Source: Streptomyces sp. NBC_01268 (lineage in GTDB: Bacteria > Actinomycetota > Actinomycetes > Streptomycetales > Streptomycetaceae). From it: a stretch of 64,000 nucleotides of DNA. The DNA is taken from the NCBI RefSeq assembly GCF_036240795.1, contig NZ_CP108454.1:124001-188000 (forward strand), given 5' to 3'. The translations under genes were made by a program, and so were the position numbers. This document shows, piece after piece, positions 56,517 to 64,000 of the stretch (positions are counted from its first letter, which is position 1; each line of letters starts with the position of its first letter). Under the pieces are notes generated by a model. It was not told where the DNA came from. It saw only the letters and a list, made by a program, of their open reading frames with translations, and made no database searches.

Positions 56517-59500
56517 CTATCGACCGGCTGCCCCGGCTCGCAGCGTGTCCGCCTCCTCGCGTGCGCGGGCCGCAGCCGCATGGTCGCCGTTCAGGGCGTG
56601 TGCCGCGCCCAGGGTGTCGAGGCCGACGGCCAGCCACCTGCTCGCGCCGATCTGCCGCCAGAGTCTGACGGCGGCCTCGCCGCGTCTGCGGGCGGAGGCC
56701 GGGCGGCCCACCGCGAGGTGGGCCTCGGCGAGGGCGTACAGCGTCGCGGCCTCGCCCCAGAGGTTGCCGTACTCCCGGTAGGTCCACAGGCTGCGGGCCA
56801 ACAGGCGCCGCCCTTCCCGGTGTTCGCCCTGCCGGACCAGGACGTCGCCGAGCCAGCAGGTGGCGTGTGTCGCGGTGAGCCGGTCGCCGAGGTCCTCGCT
56901 GATCGCGGCGGCCCGCCGGTAGGCGTCGGCGGCGGCCTGGTGGGCGCCGAGTGCCCGGTGGCTCTGGCCCAGGCACCGCAGGGCCTGGGCCTCCCCCGGC
57001 CGGTAGCCCGCGGCACGGCTGACCCGCAGGCACTTCGTGAACCGCTCGACGGCGGCCTCCACCCGACCCTGCTCCAGGTCGATGACGCCGAGGCCGTTCG
57101 TCGCGTAGACGAGGCAGTTGACGTTGCCGGCCGACTCGGCGAGCCGGGCGGCCTCCTCGAAGTGGTGTACGGCGGAGGCGTACTGGCCGAGGAGCCGGTG
57201 GACGTAGGCGAGCCCGGCCGTGGCACTCGCCCGGTACGTGGGTGCCTGGCCCTCGGCGCGCTGCAGGGCCTGTTCGAAGTGGTCCAGGGCTTCCGGGTAG
57301 CGGTCGAGGATGGTGGTGAGTTCGCCGAGGCAGCGGTGGACCTTGGCGGCGCTGTGGCGGTCGCCGCTGCTGAGGGCCGCTTCGAGGGCCCTGTTCTGAA
57401 GCCTCTCCCAGTCGTCGAAATGGCTGCCGACCTGGAAGAGGGTGGTGAGGGCGGTGGCCAGTCCGGCGGCGGGTGCGACGTTCCTCGCTCCCTCAAGCGC
57501 CCGCTCCGCCACGTCGATGAGGAACCGGCGTTCGTCGGTGAACCAGGCCAGCGGATCACCGAGCAACTGGGCGGACTCGGCGGCGGGCGGCCGCCAGGTG
57601 ACCAGGTCCAGCTGCGGGATGCCCTGGAAGTCGACGCTGAGGGTGTCCGCGGCCAGGTCGGCGAGGTGCAGGCTCGCACTGAGGAGTCGGGTGAGCGCGG
57701 CCTCGCGATGCCGTGCCGGGACGTCCTGCTCGGCCCGCTCCTTGCTGAACAGCCGTACCAGATCGTGCAACTGATAGCGGATACCGGAGGTGCCCGCCGC
57801 CTCGACCTGTACGAGGTGCACCTCGACCAGGTCGTCGAGGACGGCTTCGGCCTCGGCCAGCCCCGTGTCCAGGAGCGCGGCCAGCGCCCAGGCGGCGAAA
57901 CTCGGTTCGGGCAGCAGGGCGATCATCCGCAGAGCGTGCTGCGTCGCCGCGGTCATCTGCTGATAGGTGAGTTCGAGACTGGCCCGTACGGCGATGTGGC
58001 CGACGGCCAGCTCGTCCAGCTTGCGCTGCTCGTCGGCGAGGGCACGCGCCACCTTGGCCAGGGGCCAGCCCGGCCGGGCGGCCAGCCGCGCACCGGCCAC
58101 CCATACCGCGAGCGGAAGGCCCCCACAGGTGTCCACGATGGCGCGGGCCGGACCGGGCTCCGCGTCGGTCCGGTCCCGGCCGACCATCTCCCGCAGCAGG
58201 TCGAGCCCCGTCCCGGTGTCCAGTACGCCCAGCGGGAGCCTGCGGCAGGACAGCTCGGCCATGGTCGTCCGGCTCGTGACGATGGCCGCACAGCGCACCC
58301 CGCTGGGCAGGAGGTCGCTCACCTGCTGGACTGCGGCGGCGTTGTCCAGGACGACGAGGGTCCGCTGTCCTGCCAGCAGGGTGCGGTAGAGATGGACGCG
58401 GTCCGTCAGCTCCGCGGGCACGGCTCCTCCAGGGATGCCCAGCGCGCGGAGGAAGGCGCCGAGCACCGTGAACGGCTCGGCCGGCTCGTCGCCGAAGCCA
58501 CGCAGATCCGCGTGGAGCTGGCCGTCCGGGAAGAGGGCGGCGAGCAGATGCCCCGTCCGTACGGCGAAGGCGGTCTTGCCCACTCCGGCGGCGCCCGTGA
58601 CCAGCAGCGTAGGTGGCCCGGGCTGCTCCGCACCGAGCAGCCGCCGGGCCTCGTCCACCTCGCCCTCCCTGCCGACGAAGAGCGAGGGGCCCGCCGGCAG
58701 GAGCCGGGGTACCAGGCGCACCGAGGGCGGGCTGACCGCCGGGCTGCTCGGGCCGGCCGCTCGTGCGGTGGCGGTGGCGGTCGGCGCGGTGGAGCGGGGC
58801 TCGGCCGGTTCGGGATCGCCGGCGAGGATCCGTGCGTACAGTCCCCGCAACGCCGCGCCGGGGTCGACGCCCAGTTCGTGGGCGAGCCGCTGCCGAGCCC
58901 GCTCGTACACCTCCAGCGCCTCGGCTTGGCGTCCGCACCGGTGGAGGGCCAGGATCAGCTGACCGGTCACCCTTTCGTCGAGCGGATGCGACCGCGCCCG
59001 GTCGGCCAGTTCGCTCACCATCCGGTCGTGCTGCCCCAGCCGCAGCCGCACATCGACCGACTCCAGCTGCGCGGTGAGTCGCTCGTCGTCGAGGAGACGG
59101 CGCTGGGCGTTGAACCACGGCGTGTCCGCCCCCGCGAAGGCGCTGCCCCGCCACAGCGCCAGCGACTCCTGCCACAGCGCCTCGGACTGCGCGTCCCCGC
59201 CCGCCTTCCGGGCCCGGTCCGTCAGTTCGCGGAATCGGTAGGCGTCCACCGCCGAGGGCTCGACCGTCAGCCGGTAGCCGTCGCGCTCCCGGGTGATGGA
59301 CGTGCCGTCGGCCGCCAGCACGTGCCGCAGTCGGGAGAGGTACCCGTACAGCTTCTGGCGGCTGTAGCCCGCCCCGGCGTCCCCCCACACCCGCTCCACC
59401 AGCGCATCGGCGGACACCCCTTGATCCGCGTCGACCAGCAGCGCTCCCAGTACCCGCCGCTGCATGGCGTGCCCCACGTCGATGGGGACGCCGTTCCGCC

Positions 59501-59540
59501 GTACCTCGATGGTCCCGAGGATCCCGAACCGCGTGGCCAT
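56517..59540 (-). CDS. SARP-type regulator with BTAD, NB-ARC and TPR domains (AfsR-like)
   Basis: About 1007 residues (ATG 59540; GTG 59543 is adjacent). N-terminal OmpR-like winged helix ~5-95 (FGILGTIEVRRNGVPIDVG ... GYLSRLRHVLA), BTAD ~100-245, then an NB-ARC NTPase with Walker A GAAGVGKT at ~317, LVVLDNAA (Walker B) and GGLPLAV, and a TPR array ~650-1000. This is the AfsR layout, typical of pathway activators of natural-product clusters. It is divergent, by about 150 bp, from the peptide cluster and is the obvious activator for it. Confidence 0.9.
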   Translation of the reverse strand: MATRFGILGTIEVRRNGVPIDVGHAMQRRVLGALLVDADQGVSADALVERVWGDAGAGYSRQKLYGYLSRLRHVLAADGTSITRERDGYRLTVEPSAVDAYRFRELTDRARKAGGDAQSEALWQESLALWRGSAFAGADTPWFNAQRRLLDDERLTAQLESVDVRLRLGQHDRMVSELADRARSHPLDERVTGQLILALHRCGRQAEALEVYERARQRLAHELGVDPGAALRGLYARILAGDPEPAEPRSTAPTATATARAAGPSSPAVSPPSVRLVPRLLPAGPSLFVGREGEVDEARRLLGAEQPGPPTLLVTGAAGVGKTAFAVRTGHLLAALFPDGQLHADLRGFGDEPAEPFTVLGAFLRALGIPGGAVPAELTDRVHLYRTLLAGQRTLVVLDNAAAVQQVSDLLPSGVRCAAIVTSRTTMAELSCRRLPLGVLDTGTGLDLLREMVGRDRTDAEPGPARAIVDTCGGLPLAVWVAGARLAARPGWPLAKVARALADEQRKLDELAVGHIAVRASLELTYQQMTAATQHALRMIALLPEPSFAAWALAALLDTGLAEAEAVLDDLVEVHLVQVEAAGTSGIRYQLHDLVRLFSKERAEQDVPARHREAALTRLLSASLHLADLAADTLSVDFQGIPQLDLVTWRPPAAESAQLLGDPLAWFTDERRFLIDVAERALEGARNVAPAAGLATALTTLFQVGSHFDDWERLQNRALEAALSSGDRHSAAKVHRCLGELTTILDRYPEALDHFEQALQRAEGQAPTYRASATAGLAYVHRLLGQYASAVHHFEEAARLAESAGNVNCLVYATNGLGVIDLEQGRVEAAVERFTKCLRVSRAAGYRPGEAQALRCLGQSHRALGAHQAAADAYRRAAAISEDLGDRLTATHATCWLGDVLVRQGEHREGRRLLARSLWTYREYGNLWGEAATLYALAEAHLAVGRPASARRRGEAAVRLWRQIGASRWLAVGLDTLGAAHALNGDHAAAARAREEADTLRAGAAGR

Positions 59541-59597
59541 CACACCCCCTGTGTCACCCGACGGACCCCTCCCTCACACTGTGGGCGCCACCGACCT

Positions 59598-59616
59598 GCG
59601 GATCCAGGCGGATTCA
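59598..59616. promoter_or_regulatory. Direct repeat, candidate SARP-binding site
   Basis: GCGGATCCA and GCGGATTCA lie 10 bp apart in the divergent gap, 75-93 bp before the peptide gene. SARP proteins bind heptameric direct repeats with about 11-bp period near the -35 region. No third copy was seen. Confidence 0.45.
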
Positions 59617-59690
59617 AGCTATTCCGAAGGTTTGCCGACGCCTGCCCGGCCAGCGTGAACAGCACGTATCCGGACCACAGGAGAGTGGAC

Positions 59691-59897
59691 ATGTACCGAA
59701 AACTGGAATCGCTCGGCGCGGCACTGCTCGGGGTCTTCGTTCCCCGGATCGAAGCCGCGGCGGGCTGCGGCTCCTGGCCCAGCTGCTGGCAGTGCGCCTC
59801 CGCGTGCGGCGGCTGCTGGGCTCCCTGCGAGGGGTGCACGCAGGGCATGCCGGACAAGCCCGGCGAGTGGCTGTACTGCCGCTGCGAAGAGTGCTGA
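59691..59897 (+). CDS. Cysteine- and tryptophan-rich peptide with export leader (candidate precursor)
   Basis: 68 residues, AGGAGAG 7 bp upstream of the ATG. The start is basic (MYRK) and followed by a hydrophobic stretch (LGAALLGVFV), then EAAA-GC, a signal-peptidase-like AxA site near residue 24. The presumed mature part (~44 residues) has Cys at 26, 32, 35, 39, 42, 46, 49, 63, 65 and 68, enough for five disulfides, and Trp at 29, 33, 43 and 60. No known family is recognised. The Cys and Trp density, and MauE/MauD-like neighbours, recall the methylamine dehydrogenase small subunit, but this peptide is far smaller. It should be a secreted, disulfide-rich product of the cluster. Confidence 0.75.
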   Translation: MYRKLESLGAALLGVFVPRIEAAAGCGSWPSCWQCASACGGCWAPCEGCTQGMPDKPGEWLYCRCEEC

Positions 59898-60069
59898 CCG
59901 GAGCACCCGGTGCGGCGTCCGCGGTGAGCGCGCCTGACCACCGCGTACGGCGGAGCCGCCCGAGTCCCGGGATCCGGCATCGATTCCTCCGCCGGCTTCC
60001 GGGACTCGACCCCGCGGCGGTCGCCGACGGCTGCCGGACACCGGCCGCAGGACCCTGGAGAGGCTTCTG

Positions 60070-60627
60070 ATGCAGTACTTCGAGATCGGCGTTCGCTACC
60101 TGCTGGGGACGGTGTTCCTGACGTCGTTCCTCGGCAAGGCCACGGGGCGGGTCGCCTACGACGGCTTCGTCGCCTCCTTGCGCGCCACCCGGCTGTTGCC
60201 GGGTCTGGCGGGGGTGATGGCGCCGGCCCTGGTGGCCGCCGAAGCGGTGGTCTGCGCGCTGCTCGTGGTGCCGGTGGCCCCGACGGTCACCGTCGCCGGT
60301 CTCGTCGCCGCCGCATCGCTGCTGGCCGGCCTCACGGCGGGGGTCGCCCTCGTCGTGAGGCGCGGTGTCACGGCCCCCTGTCACTGCTTCGGCGCGTCGG
60401 CCACCGTGCTCGGCCGACGCCACGTCGCCAGGAACGGGGCACTGGCCGCCCTCGCCGTGGCGGGTGCGGTCGCGTCGCCGGACCTGCGCGCGCACCCGGC
60501 GGGAGCCGTCCTGGCCGCGCTCGGCGGGGTGGTGCTGGGGGCGCTGGTCGTGCGCCTGGACGACGTGCTCGAACTGTTCCGTTCCACTCCTCACGCCCCG
60601 CCGAGCACGGTCCGGAGCGGGCGGTAA
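60070..60627 (+). CDS. MauE/DoxX-like redox membrane protein
   Basis: 185 residues with four hydrophobic spans. It matches the MauE family: YLLGTVFLTSFLGKATGRVAYDGFVASL at the N-terminus and a Cys-x-Cys pair (Cys104, Cys106 in APCHCFGAS) between spans 3 and 4. MauE is a membrane partner needed for disulfide formation in methylamine dehydrogenase. GAGAGG lies 5-10 bp before the ATG. It follows the peptide at about 170 bp and precedes a MauD-like protein. Confidence 0.85.
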   Translation: MQYFEIGVRYLLGTVFLTSFLGKATGRVAYDGFVASLRATRLLPGLAGVMAPALVAAEAVVCALLVVPVAPTVTVAGLVAAASLLAGLTAGVALVVRRGVTAPCHCFGASATVLGRRHVARNGALAALAVAGAVASPDLRAHPAGAVLAALGGVVLGALVVRLDDVLELFRSTPHAPPSTVRSGR

Positions 60628-60655
60628 CCGCGTTGGCAGAACTCAGGGAGCAGAA

Positions 60656-61177
60656 ATGCCATTCCTCATCACGGCGGTCGTGTTCGTCGGACTGCTCTGT
60701 GCCCTCGACCTCGTCCTCACGTTCGGAGTCGTGAAGCGGCTGCGGGAGCACAGTGGTCTGCTGTCCGCGATGGAGCCCGGGCCCGGCCTGGGTGTGGGCG
60801 AGAGCGTGGGCGGGTTCCGGACCGCGGACGTCGACGGCGCACCGCTGAGCCCCGACACTCTGGCGGCCGCCACCTTCGTCGCCTTCATCTCGCCGACCTG
60901 CGGGTCCTGCAAGGAGAAGCTGCCCGAGCTGGTGCGTTACGCCCACCGGCTGCGGGAGGTGGGCGAGGAGATGCTCGCCGTCGTCGTCGGGAACGCCGAG
61001 GAGGCCCGTTCCTTCGCCGCCGACCTGCGTCCGGTCGCCCGCGTGGCGGTCGAGGGTTCCGGCGGGCCGCTGGGGACCGCGTTCAGGGCGTCCAGCTACC
61101 CGACGATGCTGTGGGTCGCGCCGGACGCCGACGGCCGCCTCGTGAGGGTGGCGCGCTCGGCCGCACTCGCGTCATGA
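60656..61177 (+). CDS. MauD/TlpA-like membrane-anchored thioredoxin
   Basis: 173 residues: an N-terminal membrane anchor (FLITAVVFVGLLCALDLVL), then a thioredoxin fold with VAFISPTCGSCKEKLPEL, where Cys82 and Cys85 form the CxxC site, and a cis-Pro loop SSYPTMLW. Anchored with the catalytic domain outside, it should oxidise or isomerise disulfides of the Cys-rich peptide, with the MauE-like protein as redox partner. CAGGGAG precedes the ATG. Its stop overlaps the exporter start (ATGA). Confidence 0.87.
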   Translation: MPFLITAVVFVGLLCALDLVLTFGVVKRLREHSGLLSAMEPGPGLGVGESVGGFRTADVDGAPLSPDTLAAATFVAFISPTCGSCKEKLPELVRYAHRLREVGEEMLAVVVGNAEEARSFAADLRPVARVAVEGSGGPLGTAFRASSYPTMLWVAPDADGRLVRVARSAALAS

Positions 61178-63144
61178 GCGGGCGACGAGGCGGGGGGCCG
61201 TCGGGATACGGTGCGAGCCGGCCGTCCGGCCGGGCCTCCGGGAGTGCGGCGGGCGCACCGTCCGGCCGCGATCCGGCCGGGGAGGTGCCCGCCCGGGGCA
61301 GGTCGGTGCGTGCCGTCTGCCGGACGGTCCGCGCGGCCGTCGTGCTGGGGGTGACGGTGGCTCCCGGGCTGACCGCCTCGTATGCCGCTCTGATGCTGGC
61401 GGGCGGTGCGCTGCCGGTCGCGGCCGCCTGGCTGACCAAGGTGCTGCTCGACTCGCTGGCCGACCCGGCCGGTTCCTCCTCGCTGATCGGCGTCGGAGCG
61501 GGACTTGCAGCGGTCGGCACGGTCACCACGGTCATGCCGCACGTCGTGCGGTACCTGCGGCAGGAGGCCGGGCGCCAGGTGGGCCTGCGAGCCCAGGACC
61601 GCCTCTTCAGGGCGCTGAACGGCCAGGCAGGGATCGGCCGCTTCGAGAACCCCCGCTTCCTCGACCGGCTGCGACTGGCCCTCCAGGCCGGCGGGAGCAA
61701 GCCCACCGAGATGCTGGACAGCCTGCTGGCCACCGCTCGGGCACTCATCACGATCACCGGCTTCCTGGGCGTACTGACGCTCCTCGGCCCGCTCATGCCG
61801 GCCCTGGTGCTGGCCGCTGGAATCCCCGTACTCCTCGCGGAGATGGCGCTGTCGCGCCGCCGCGCACGCATGCACTGGTCGGTCACTCCCACCGAGCGCC
61901 GCGAGTTCACGTACATGCAGCTGTTGTCGACCGTCGCGGCGGCGAAGGAGGTGCGCCTGTTCGGAGTCGGTGATCTGCTCCGACACCGGATGCTGCACGA
62001 CCGGCGCGGGATCAACGCCGAGCGGCGCGCGCTGGACGTCCGCGAGACGCGGGTGCAGGGCGCGCTCGCGCTGATGGCGGCCGTCGTCCCCGGCCTGGGG
62101 TTGTTGTGGGTCGTCTCCGCGGCTCGGGCGGGCCGGTTCTCGATCGGCGAGGTCACGGTGTTCCTCGCGGCGGTCGCCGGGGTGCAGACCGCCATCTCCA
62201 TGCTGGCCGCCGAGATCGCCCGCGTCTACCAGGCACTCCTGCTGTTCGAGCACTACGTGGCGGTGACGACGGCCGGTCCGGACCTGCCGGTGACGGTCCC
62301 GCCCGTCTCCCTGCCCCCGCTCCAACGCGGCATCGAACTGCGCGGCGTATGGTTCCGCTACTCCGACGACCACCCGTGGATCCTGCGCGACGTCGACCTG
62401 ACCATCCCGGCGGGCGGTTCGCTCGCCCTGGTCGGACTCAACGGCGCCGGCAAGTCCACCCTCATCAAGCTGTTGTGCCGGTTCTACGACCCGACCCGCG
62501 GCACCGTCCTCTGGGACGGCGTGGACATCCGCGACGCGGACGTGACCCGTCTGCGCGAGCGGATCAGCGCCACCTTCCAGGACTTCGTGCAGTACGAGAT
62601 GACCGCGGCGGAGAACATCTCCCTCGGGGACGCGTCGGCACAGGGAGACATGCCCCGCGTTCGGGCCGCCGCGGACCGCGCCGGTGTACACAAGAGCCTG
62701 GCGCAACTGCCGCACGGGTACGAGACGTTGCTGACCCGCGTGTTCTCCCATGAGTCCGACGACGACCACCCCGCGCCCGGGGTGGTGCTCTCCGGGGGGC
62801 AGTGGCAGCGACTCGCCGTGGCGCGCGCGTTCCTGCGCGAGCGGCGGGATCTGGTGATCCTCGACGAACCCTCCGCCGGACTCGATGCCGAAGCGGAGCA
62901 CGAGGTCCACACGTCCTTGCGCCGCTACCGCGCGGGGCAGACCAGTCTGCTCATCTCCCACCGCCTCAACACGGTCCGCGACGCCGACCGCATCGTCGTG
63001 CTGTCCGACGGACGGGTCGTGGAGCAGGGCGATCACGAGGAACTCATGGCCGCCGACGGCCGGTACGCCCGGCTGTTCATGCTCCAGGCAGCCGGCTACC
63101 GAATCCCGTCGTCGACGCTCCTCAAGCCGATCGGAGAGCGATGA
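61174..63144 (+). CDS. ABC exporter, fused membrane and ATPase domains
   Basis: 656 residues. An N-terminal ~45-residue low-complexity stretch, then six predicted spans, then an ATPase with Walker A GLNGAGKST (~430), signature LSGGQWQRLAVAR, Walker B LVILDEPSAGLD and LLISHRLNTVRDADR. No C39 peptidase is present, so leader removal must be done by another enzyme, fitting the S26 gene next door. It is related to exporters of lanthipeptides and other RiPPs. Both its ends overlap neighbours by 4 bp. Confidence 0.9.
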   Translation: MSGRRGGGPSGYGASRPSGRASGSAAGAPSGRDPAGEVPARGRSVRAVCRTVRAAVVLGVTVAPGLTASYAALMLAGGALPVAAAWLTKVLLDSLADPAGSSSLIGVGAGLAAVGTVTTVMPHVVRYLRQEAGRQVGLRAQDRLFRALNGQAGIGRFENPRFLDRLRLALQAGGSKPTEMLDSLLATARALITITGFLGVLTLLGPLMPALVLAAGIPVLLAEMALSRRRARMHWSVTPTERREFTYMQLLSTVAAAKEVRLFGVGDLLRHRMLHDRRGINAERRALDVRETRVQGALALMAAVVPGLGLLWVVSAARAGRFSIGEVTVFLAAVAGVQTAISMLAAEIARVYQALLLFEHYVAVTTAGPDLPVTVPPVSLPPLQRGIELRGVWFRYSDDHPWILRDVDLTIPAGGSLALVGLNGAGKSTLIKLLCRFYDPTRGTVLWDGVDIRDADVTRLRERISATFQDFVQYEMTAAENISLGDASAQGDMPRVRAAADRAGVHKSLAQLPHGYETLLTRVFSHESDDDHPAPGVVLSGGQWQRLAVARAFLRERRDLVILDEPSAGLDAEAEHEVHTSLRRYRAGQTSLLISHRLNTVRDADRIVVLSDGRVVEQGDHEELMAADGRYARLFMLQAAGYRIPSSTLLKPIGER

Positions 63145-63950
63145 CCGCCGAACCCGGTACGGAGCGGGGTGTGGTCCGGGTACGTCACGACTGGTCCGGA
63201 CAGCCTCCCCACCCGACCGTGCCGCGGCCGCCGGACCCGCACCGCCGCCGAGCCGGCTCAGCCGCCGCCGTCACCGGCGCGCCCGCCCTGGCGGCGGCCG
63301 CGTCGATCACCGCGGGCGCCTGCCTCCCCGTGGATCGTGGACTGCTGTACGCGCTACCGCCGCTGCTGGTCTGCATCGTCGTGACCGCCCGTCGGCTCCT
63401 CGCCCGTCGTCTCGCCGCGGTCACCGTGCGCGGCCGGAGCATGGAACCCTCCTACCACGACGGCGACCGCGTCCTGGTACGGCGTACCGGCACCCCCGCG
63501 GCGGGAGAGGTCGTCGTGGTGGAGCAGCCGGGAGCGGACGGCCGGTGGCTCGGCCCCCCGCCGGCCTCCGGAGCGGACGACGCGAGGTTGTCCGGACGCC
63601 GTTGGCTCATCAAACGCGTCGCCGCCGTACCCGGTGAGCCGGTGCCGCGTGCGGACTTTCCCGCGCTGGCCCATGCCGAGGAGGACGCCGTCCCCCCGGG
63701 CAAGGTCGTGCTGGTCGGGGACAACCGGCGGCTGAGCCTCGACTCGCGGCGGATCGGCTACTTCCCCGCGGAACGCGTGCTCGGCGTCGTCGTACGCGGA
63801 GCTCATCCGGCGCCGGGCCACCGGACCGCGCCGGAACGGAACGCGCCTCGGGCCGCCGCGCAGGCGTCTCGACCGGGACGCGCCCCCCACACCACCACCT
63901 CGCTCCACTCCCGATCCCGACACACCCCAAGAGGAAAGGAATCCCCATGA
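63141..63950 (+). CDS. S26-family signal peptidase
   Basis: 269 residues. Two hydrophobic stretches lie near 35-55 and 60-80, then the S26 core: catalytic Ser100 in VRGRSMEPSYHDGDRVLV, the Lys158 general base in LIKRVAAVPGEPV, and a box E-like VGDNRRLSLDSRRIGYFP. The C-terminal ~40 residues are low-complexity. A dedicated signal peptidase in a peptide cluster suggests it removes the leader of the precursor at 59691. Coupled at both ends (4-bp overlaps). Confidence 0.88.
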   Translation: MTAEPGTERGVVRVRHDWSGQPPHPTVPRPPDPHRRRAGSAAAVTGAPALAAAASITAGACLPVDRGLLYALPPLLVCIVVTARRLLARRLAAVTVRGRSMEPSYHDGDRVLVRRTGTPAAGEVVVVEQPGADGRWLGPPPASGADDARLSGRRWLIKRVAAVPGEPVPRADFPALAHAEEDAVPPGKVVLVGDNRRLSLDSRRIGYFPAERVLGVVVRGAHPAPGHRTAPERNAPRAAAQASRPGRAPHTTTSLHSRSRHTPRGKESP

Positions 63951-64000
63951 TCACCCGTATCGCGCGGCGTACCCGCCGCGCCCTCTCCGCCGCAGGTGCC
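63947..64000 (+). CDS. Unknown coupled gene, N-terminal 18 codons only
   Basis: The ATG overlaps the S26 stop (ATGA) and follows a strong GGAAAGGAA. Only ITRIARRTRRALSAAGA is visible: a basic, amphipathic start that could be a leader or signal sequence. The gene continues past the window end and belongs to the same operon. Confidence 0.6.
   Translation, partial: MITRIARRTRRALSAAGA

Follow-up and report, generated by a model that had tools for sequence, protein, structure and literature searches.

The window analysed here, a stretch of 64,000 nucleotides, corresponds to positions 124001–188000 of the 8.5-Mb single-contig genome of Streptomyces sp. NBC_01268. Its right-hand end carries a gene cluster in which a gene for a small Cys-rich peptide, divergent from a regulatory gene, is followed on the same strand by genes for a MauE-family membrane protein, a thioredoxin, an ATP-binding cassette (ABC) exporter and a peptidase of family S26 (Table 1). 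We examined this cluster as a candidate system for the maturation and export of a ribosomally synthesized and post-translationally modified peptide (RiPP). All the genes lie where an earlier note, made from the sequence of the window, had placed them, and the leader-bearing peptide of 68 residues with 10 Cys and 4 Trp that it described is present, as is the arrangement of ATGA overlaps and short gaps: the thioredoxin/ABC and ABC/S26 junctions are ATGA overlaps, 28 nt separate the MauE and thioredoxin genes, and 172 nt separate the peptide gene from that of MauE. An AGGAG stretch is found at −12 to −8 upstream of the ATG of the peptide gene (59691), and a promoter and terminator scan of 59500–60100 found none. 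The peptide also constitutes the end of a 1105-aa plus-strand open reading frame (ORF), which is mostly antisense to the regulator.

Table 1. Features of the cluster (positions in the window)
Feature	Position	Strand	Basis
SARP (Streptomyces antibiotic regulatory protein; BTAD)–NB-ARC–TPR transcriptional regulator	56517–59543	-	Pfam BTAD 1.4e-35, NB-ARC, TPR; divergent from peptide gene
Precursor peptide gene, 68 aa, 10 Cys and 4 Trp	59691–59897	+	
Precursor leader, 24 residues, ending in AxA (VPRIEAAA)	59691–59762	+	alignment with 21 peptides
Precursor core, 44 residues with 10 Cys and 4 Trp, ending in Cys	59763–59894	+	sequence; stop codon 59895–59897
MauE-family membrane protein, CxCFG motif	60070–60627	+	PF07291
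MauD/ResA-like thioredoxin, one N-terminal transmembrane helix, CGSC	60656–61177	+	profiles, AlphaFold2 model
ABC exporter, fused transmembrane and nucleotide-binding domains	61174–63144	+	MsbA-type matches, PF00005
Dedicated S26 peptidase, Ser100/Lys158 dyad	63141–63950	+	TIGR02227

The earlier note had proposed searching for the peptide and for the gene order in other genomes, and the set does recur. When 392 genomes of the genus were searched with the peptide alone, 45 had a match at E ≤ 0.01. Apart from the window, flanks were examined at 24 places, taken mainly from the top of the score list, and 22 of the 24 carried MauE and thioredoxin genes; the matches in genomes G126 and G306, with no MauE or ABC gene alongside, were dropped. 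Another 21 genomes with weak peptide matches (E 0.002–0.0097) were left out of the confirmed count, which stands, window included, at 22 genomes and 23 loci, one genome having two. A profile of 21 peptides matched 15 of 394 genomes of the class, belonging to 7 of 137 genera, and 20 further stretches were collected. Across the 43 loci found through the peptide, MauE and the thioredoxin are present in 43, and the ABC exporter and the S26 peptidase in 41 each, one locus (L054) being cut by a contig end. In several loci outside the genus, and in L102 inside it, the gene order is changed or the S26 peptidase is divergent and the set is nevertheless retained, so that its conservation reflects more than inherited synteny.

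The set was also recovered by a search blind to the peptide. An alignment of the thioredoxin was run against one genome per species, 84,980 species in all, and gave 96 relatives, the best 80 of which were kept. In these best 80 of 96 loci, a profile hidden Markov model (HMM) detected the peptide in 77, weak matches (15–24 bits) being inspected by eye; MauE was found in 76, the exporter in 77, the S26 peptidase in 74, and all five genes together in 69. As to the three loci negative with the HMM, L110 starts at a contig end just upstream of MauE, a peptide was recognized by eye after the S26 gene of L181, and L182 has none. The peptide is thus present in 78 of the 79 loci that could be checked. 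The system thereby withstands the test named in the earlier note, in which a recurrence of the gene order devoid of a small Cys-rich ORF would have spoken against it. Seventeen of the 80 loci repeat the first sample, the combined 123 loci amounting to 106 distinct ones. Hosts among the best 80 include Streptomyces, Embleya, Micromonospora, Rugosimonospora, Catellatospora, Asanoa and Longispora, together with Virgisporangium, Nonomuraea, Rhizohabitans, Nocardia, Longimycelium, Kibdelosporangium and Lentzea. Judging from this co-occurrence, the gene set is a real unit, widespread in soil actinobacteria, well beyond what chance would produce.

The profile of 21 peptides retrieved 76 proteins at E ≤ 0.01 from a large protein database; their legible names are all hypothetical or uncharacterized, and none has a precomputed Pfam domain. 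The thioredoxin occurs in eleven plasmid records, and on a plasmid of S. atratus the cluster is annotated as a BTAD regulator, a hypothetical protein, MauE/DoxX, a hypothetical protein, an ABC protein and an S26 peptidase, followed by an integrase. Some loci are smaller. In S. cinnamoneus (L044/L127), the peptide, MauE, the thioredoxin and the exporter are present, and no S26 gene was found beside the cluster. In Longispora albida (L173), the peptide and the thioredoxin accompany a SARP-like regulator, with an AMP-binding enzyme (PF00501) nearby; MauE, ABC and S26 genes were not found there, and the locus could be a reduced or borrowed version of the system.

The peptides share a leader and differ in their cores. 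In the 21 aligned relatives, M1, G9, V17, P18, A22 and A24 of the leader are invariant (21/21), defining a conserved VPxxxAxA motif that extends in the wider set to the pattern L..lgdRLL..fVPk..AsA. Leaders are amphipathic, with a hydrophobic moment more than one standard deviation above that of shuffled sequences in 92 of 106, and mildly hydrophobic (median of the 12-residue maximum, 1.05). The locus ORFs and the database proteins, with the L181 peptide added, total 215 peptides, 206 of which match the leader pattern and yield 169 distinct cores, the remaining nine being set aside. The cores contain 19.6% Cys and 1.4% His, and are also rich in Gly, Ser, Ala and Tyr. The number of Cys residues is even in 166 of the 169 distinct cores: 4 (1 core), 6 (41), 8 (67), 10 (54) or 12 (3), the odd numbers being 7, 9 and 11 (1 each). 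When cores are grouped at about 50% identity, 46 of the 48 clusters are even (binomial p = 4e-12, assuming that the clusters are independent), and the database proteins taken alone give 75 even counts out of 76. Complete pairing of the Cys residues into disulfides is therefore the simplest reading. A peptide from Streptomyces sp. ML-6 (P0036) is 82% identical to that of the window and has one Cys replaced by Phe, which leaves 9. Loci contain one to seven copies of the peptide gene; that of Rhizohabitans arisaemae (L164) encodes seven precursors with different cores, the thioredoxin gene lying downstream of six.

Peptides so rich in Cys might instead bind metal, in the manner of a metallothionein or a metallophore, the redox pair then keeping the thiols reduced or averting wrong disulfides. 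The density of Cys and the CxxC and CC motifs would suit such a role, and so would the likeness of the leader end to the propeptide of nickel superoxide dismutase (NiSOD) described below. Even Cys numbers combined with scarce His favour pairing, however, and the recurring neighbours that were identified are regulators, not metal transport genes; we consider metal binding improbable.

Peptide sequences diverge in a way that points to selection on a translated product. Compared with its nearest relative (G160), the peptide of the window gives nonsynonymous and synonymous divergences (dN and dS) of 0.15 and 0.50, and its leader 0.08 and 0.45, indicative of purifying selection; dN is smaller than dS in both leader and core across the eight close pairs compared, the weakest cases being the cores of L048/L058 (0.35/0.61) and L052/L056 (0.17/0.26), and also the pair L045/L053, whose members differ at eight bases. 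At greater distance, in locus pairs whose ABC exporters are 60–70% identical, the median identities of the thioredoxin and the leader are 53 and 54, and that of the core is 35, with a shuffled-core baseline of 27. From these two results taken together, the peptide is very probably translated, its sequence being under constraint over short time spans and free to diversify over longer ones. The window peptide matched no Pfam or NCBIfam family; the best NCBIfam E-value for 60 relatives was 0.067, and the best one of a PDB profile search with the peptide 0.15, both at chance level. Its AlphaFold2 model has a mean per-residue confidence (pLDDT) of 69.6 and a predicted TM-score of 0.47, and since the best Foldseek match of this weak model has an E-value of 6.7, no fold is claimed.

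The active sites of the putative redox pair are invariant. MauE, the sole MauE of the genome above the cut-off, scores 78.2 bits on PF07291, beyond the Pfam gathering cut-off of 27, and both Cys residues of its CxC motif are conserved in 43 of 43 loci. The same holds for the CxxC motif of the thioredoxin and for its Pro149, taken as the cis-Pro (43/43). Profile matches of the thioredoxin in the PDB include 2l5o (2e-11) and ResA (3.9e-9), and its AlphaFold2 model (pLDDT 90.8) confidently adopts a thioredoxin fold with a best Foldseek match of 4.1e-7 and ResA-type proteins among the nearest. Its best NCBIfam match is MauD (TIGR02661; E = 1.7e-5), at 24.4 bits against a cut-off of 188.6, and 14 of 43 relatives match MauD at E ≤ 0.1. 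The pair first described as MauE and a MauD-like protein thus stands for MauE by the family's own threshold and for MauD as a likeness, but not as membership of the MauD family.

MauE and MauD serve the Cys-rich small subunit of methylamine dehydrogenase. The maturation of that enzyme resembles the present system by its MauE family, its MauD-like thioredoxin and its small Cys-rich substrate; it differs in that the substrate is unrelated and that the MauD cut-off is not reached. By this analogy, the pair could take part in a Trp- or Cys-derived modification such as the tryptophan tryptophylquinone of methylamine dehydrogenase, and a Trp modification had indeed been suggested in the earlier note. 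CWQC occurs in 92 of the 169 cores, and a P450 group in the flanks of 6 of the 123 loci. On the other hand, 10 of the 169 cores have no Trp, and cores that lack CWQC keep the same genes. The survey of neighbours, which relied on a simple gene caller that misses some short genes and on annotation of part of the groups, found a SARP–NB-ARC–TPR regulator in 36 of the 123 loci (17 of the 123 are repeats), AraC-type regulators in 19 and 8, and a LysR-type regulator in 14; the remaining groups occur in at most 13 loci, the 13-locus one looking like an antisense frame. Ten neighbour proteins were scanned, among them the P450 and an APH-type kinase (also a group in 6 of 123 loci). No neighbour group identified as an enzyme exceeds 8 of the 123 loci, MauG and radical SAM enzymes not having been searched by name. 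The small subunit of methylamine dehydrogenase (PF02975) had no match in the genome, nor in the control genomes. With no widely recurring further enzyme and with Trp-less cores, Trp modification is unsupported and was rejected as the chemistry of the product, and a modification of the quinone type, on Trp or Cys, seems most improbable.

Two further ORFs follow the S26 gene. The first, for a secreted Cys-containing protein of 152 aa, has its ATG at 63947, overlapping the S26 stop codon, and runs beyond the window to 64405; only a 27-aa piece of it was found in the nearest relative. The next encodes a secreted protein of 124 aa, 83% identical in that relative. Both are absent from the neighbour groups recurring in at least 4 of the 123 loci and were for this reason kept outside the core system.

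The exporter of the window is a fused half-transporter. As stated in the earlier note, it carries no C39 peptidase domain (no Pfam match at E ≤ 1), and cleavage of the leader would fall to the S26 peptidase. The latter scores 72.2 bits on the type I signal peptidase family TIGR02227 (cut-off 47) and 32.0 bits on SodX (TIGR02754), below the cut-off of 63.25; Ser100 and Lys158 are found throughout the 38 aligned sequences. In an unrooted tree of chosen representatives, 30 cluster S26 peptidases fall into a single clade (support 98/95) that excludes 18 SodX and five other S26 proteins of the genome. The earlier description as a dedicated signal peptidase therefore holds as regards family and dyad, but the protein belongs to a clade of its own, with a charge layout unlike that of the four tandem signal peptidases of the genome.

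The end of the leader resembles the propeptide of the genome's own NiSOD (MLSRLFAPKVKVSA before HCDLPCG). On a matrix built from 106 leaders, this propeptide obtains 16.8 bits. With genes holding a family leader excluded, no other N-terminus among 1459 attains this value, and one of 457,311 overlapping 13-mers does; in other actinobacterial genera, the NiSOD propeptides have lower scores (4.6–9.3) or negative ones. The processing of NiSOD is intracellular, and sodN and sodX lie side by side in this genome. SodX is the cognate peptidase that processes NiSOD and is encoded next to it, according to the part of the literature consulted (PMC3919588). The removal of the NiSOD propeptide by SodX thus provides, in the same cells, a precedent for an S26 peptidase cutting a short leader. 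The two systems are alike in having a short leader ending in ..F-x-P-K-V-x-x-S-A and a cognate S26-family peptidase; they differ in that NiSOD is a nickel enzyme and that the cluster S26 lies in another clade, below the SodX cut-off. An origin of the cluster S26 from SodX was rejected given the separate clades of the unrooted tree, and the resemblance of the leaders, which alone is retained, may reflect shared ancestry or convergence of the cleavage site.

To place these proteins with respect to the membrane we used the positive-inside rule, i.e. the numbers of Lys and Arg (K/R) around the transmembrane (TM) segments, so that the placements that follow are charge-based. Thioredoxins have on average 0.12 K/R before the TM helix and 3.26 after it (after > before in 42 of 43), and the loop of MauE that bears the CxC motif is strongly positive, with 5.4 K/R and 0.6 D/E in the 38 loops read out of 43. 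Among the 39 S26 peptidases read out of 41 (in the other two, no start codon precedes the hydrophobic stretch), K/R are more numerous after the TM segment in 26, equal in 10 and more numerous before it in 3; that of the window has 1 before and 4 after. By eye, the four tandem signal peptidases of the genome display K/R before the TM segment, the opposite of most cluster S26, and so do L197 and L202, two thioredoxin-fold proteins of this genome with a lipoprotein-like or TM start. In one clade (leader KISASA; 11 loci, 7 distinct), the S26 peptidase appears to begin about 20 residues before the Ser motif, with a TTG start in three cases, and has no TM-grade stretch (19-residue maxima of 1.17–1.56), which argues for cytoplasmic catalysis. 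The thioredoxin, the CxC loop of MauE and, less firmly, the S26 domain may accordingly reside on the cytoplasmic side.

The conventional order of events would be the reverse: the precursor leaves the cell in reduced form through the ABC protein, and it is on the outside that the thioredoxin and MauE oxidise it and that the S26 peptidase removes its leader. We give this order slightly less than an even chance. AxA is the motif of signal peptidase I, the S26 peptidase exceeds the TIGR02227 cut-off, the ResA/TlpA relatives of the thioredoxin are extracytoplasmic, and some Streptomyces S26, including that of the window, carry a second hydrophobic segment upstream. The charge distributions of the thioredoxins, of the MauE loop and of most S26 peptidases argue against it, as do the opposite layout of the tandem signal peptidases, the S26 clade devoid of a TM segment, and the leader itself, whose amphipathic, mildly hydrophobic character is unlike that of a Sec signal.

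The locus contains what defines a RiPP at the level of genes, namely an encoded precursor, a conserved leader, a variable core and adjoining dedicated maturation genes. Known systems close to this one include those of the decRiPPter survey (2020). In the section concerned, it reports three candidate families with mauE, from Streptomyces sp. 2112.3, S. viridosporus T7A and sp. CS081A. Their precursors all have at least 8 Cys, mauD accompanies mauE in one family, and the authors suggest a role of these genes in precursor modification (PMC7794033). The genus, MauE (with MauD in one family) and the Cys-rich precursors are common to both descriptions; the survey devotes to them a supplementary table and one paragraph, in which the leader, Cys parity, S26 peptidase, topology and spread beyond Streptomyces are not described (PMC7794033). 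One of our loci, L134, comes from S. viridosporus NRRL 2414, a strain of the same species as T7A. Since S. viridosporus thus holds both L134 and a decRiPPter family, the mauE families are likely the same system. No later characterisation of it was found in a literature search that left most subscription journals outside. The earlier statement that the set matches no RiPP class consequently holds for the named classes compared here, and needs amending in that MauE candidates with at least 8 Cys had already been listed in the portion of the decRiPPter paper cited (PMC7794033).

In sublancin and the glycocins, an exported peptide receives its disulfides from a dedicated redox pair; here the cluster has no glycosyltransferase, the exporter no C39 domain and the leader no GG motif. 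These peptides are named as having dedicated thiol oxidoreductases in the text consulted of PMC9266682. Class I lasso peptide clusters (sviceucin, humidimycin) likewise have, as far as the cited passages go, a DoxX protein and a CxxC thioredoxin beside a Cys-containing RiPP and an ABC protein; they differ by their B and C enzymes and two disulfides, as opposed to the absence of a cyclase, mostly three to six Cys pairs and the S26 peptidase found here (PMC9266682, PMC7168211). As to the lasso B and C enzymes, all genes of the window cluster are assigned otherwise, and the relatives were not searched for lasso families by name.

Altogether, the cluster quite likely encodes a RiPP-like system in which disulfide formation would be the only modification, in agreement with the secretion and disulfide-maturation system first proposed; this is suggested by the co-occurrence of the genes, the parity of the Cys residues and the invariant CxxC and CxC motifs. 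Several points weigh against it. The product, its disulfides and its cleavage are predictions from sequence. Exceptions exist in each series: L087 has no ABC gene and L044 no S26 gene; L137 has no MauE, and L173, L174 and L175 have neither MauE nor one or both of ABC and S26; L182 has no peptide. Four cores are odd in all, three of the 169 and that of L107, which has 7 Cys and belongs to the nine peptides set aside, the other eight being even; and in Streptomyces sp. ADI95-17 (L171) a CWQC-type peptide has only 4 Cys with the other four genes present. The main caution on the analogy comes from the lasso peptides, for which, in the passages cited, a comparable DoxX/thioredoxin pair was considered unnecessary for forming the disulfides, the peptide stayed in the mycelium when one thioredoxin gene was deleted, and the knock-outs still produced the peptide, with lower yield or mycelial retention and no thiol intermediates reported (PMC9266682). 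The pair studied here could therefore serve export. The near-absolute linkage to many-Cys cores and the lack of any other recurring enzyme would set the present system apart from the lasso case.

In the disulfide-forming system that we favour, the thioredoxin would oxidise pairs of core Cys residues and hand the electrons on to the membrane by way of the CxC motif of MauE; the S26 peptidase would cut the leader after AxA and the ABC exporter would release the folded peptide. Oxidation and cleavage would, less firmly, take place at the cytoplasmic face before export, as suggested by the charge distribution. The ten ties and three contrary cases among the S26 peptidases speak against this placement, as does the reducing cytoplasm, which argues against oxidation there. 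We put forward only tentatively, as possible rather than probable, that the system represents a new RiPP-like class. At the cytosolic face, its peptides would acquire three to six disulfides through the membrane thioredoxin–MauE pair and lose a NiSOD-like leader to an inward-facing S26 peptidase, the finished knot being exported last.

The product is probably an antagonistic, bacteriocin-like peptide or a signalling peptide. What had been a one-paragraph genome-mining remark becomes a defined system, membership of which can be tested by the leader motif, the five genes, the invariant active sites and the parity of the Cys residues, and which is spread over Streptomyces and a dozen or more other genera of actinobacteria. 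The peptides would constitute a natural library of disulfide scaffolds, some of them on plasmids, of use in the search for antibiotics and in peptide engineering. The result of the charge rule makes both the role and the membrane side of MauE/MauD-type pairs testable; if true, thiol oxidation from the inside would be, to our knowledge, a new bacterial route to disulfides.

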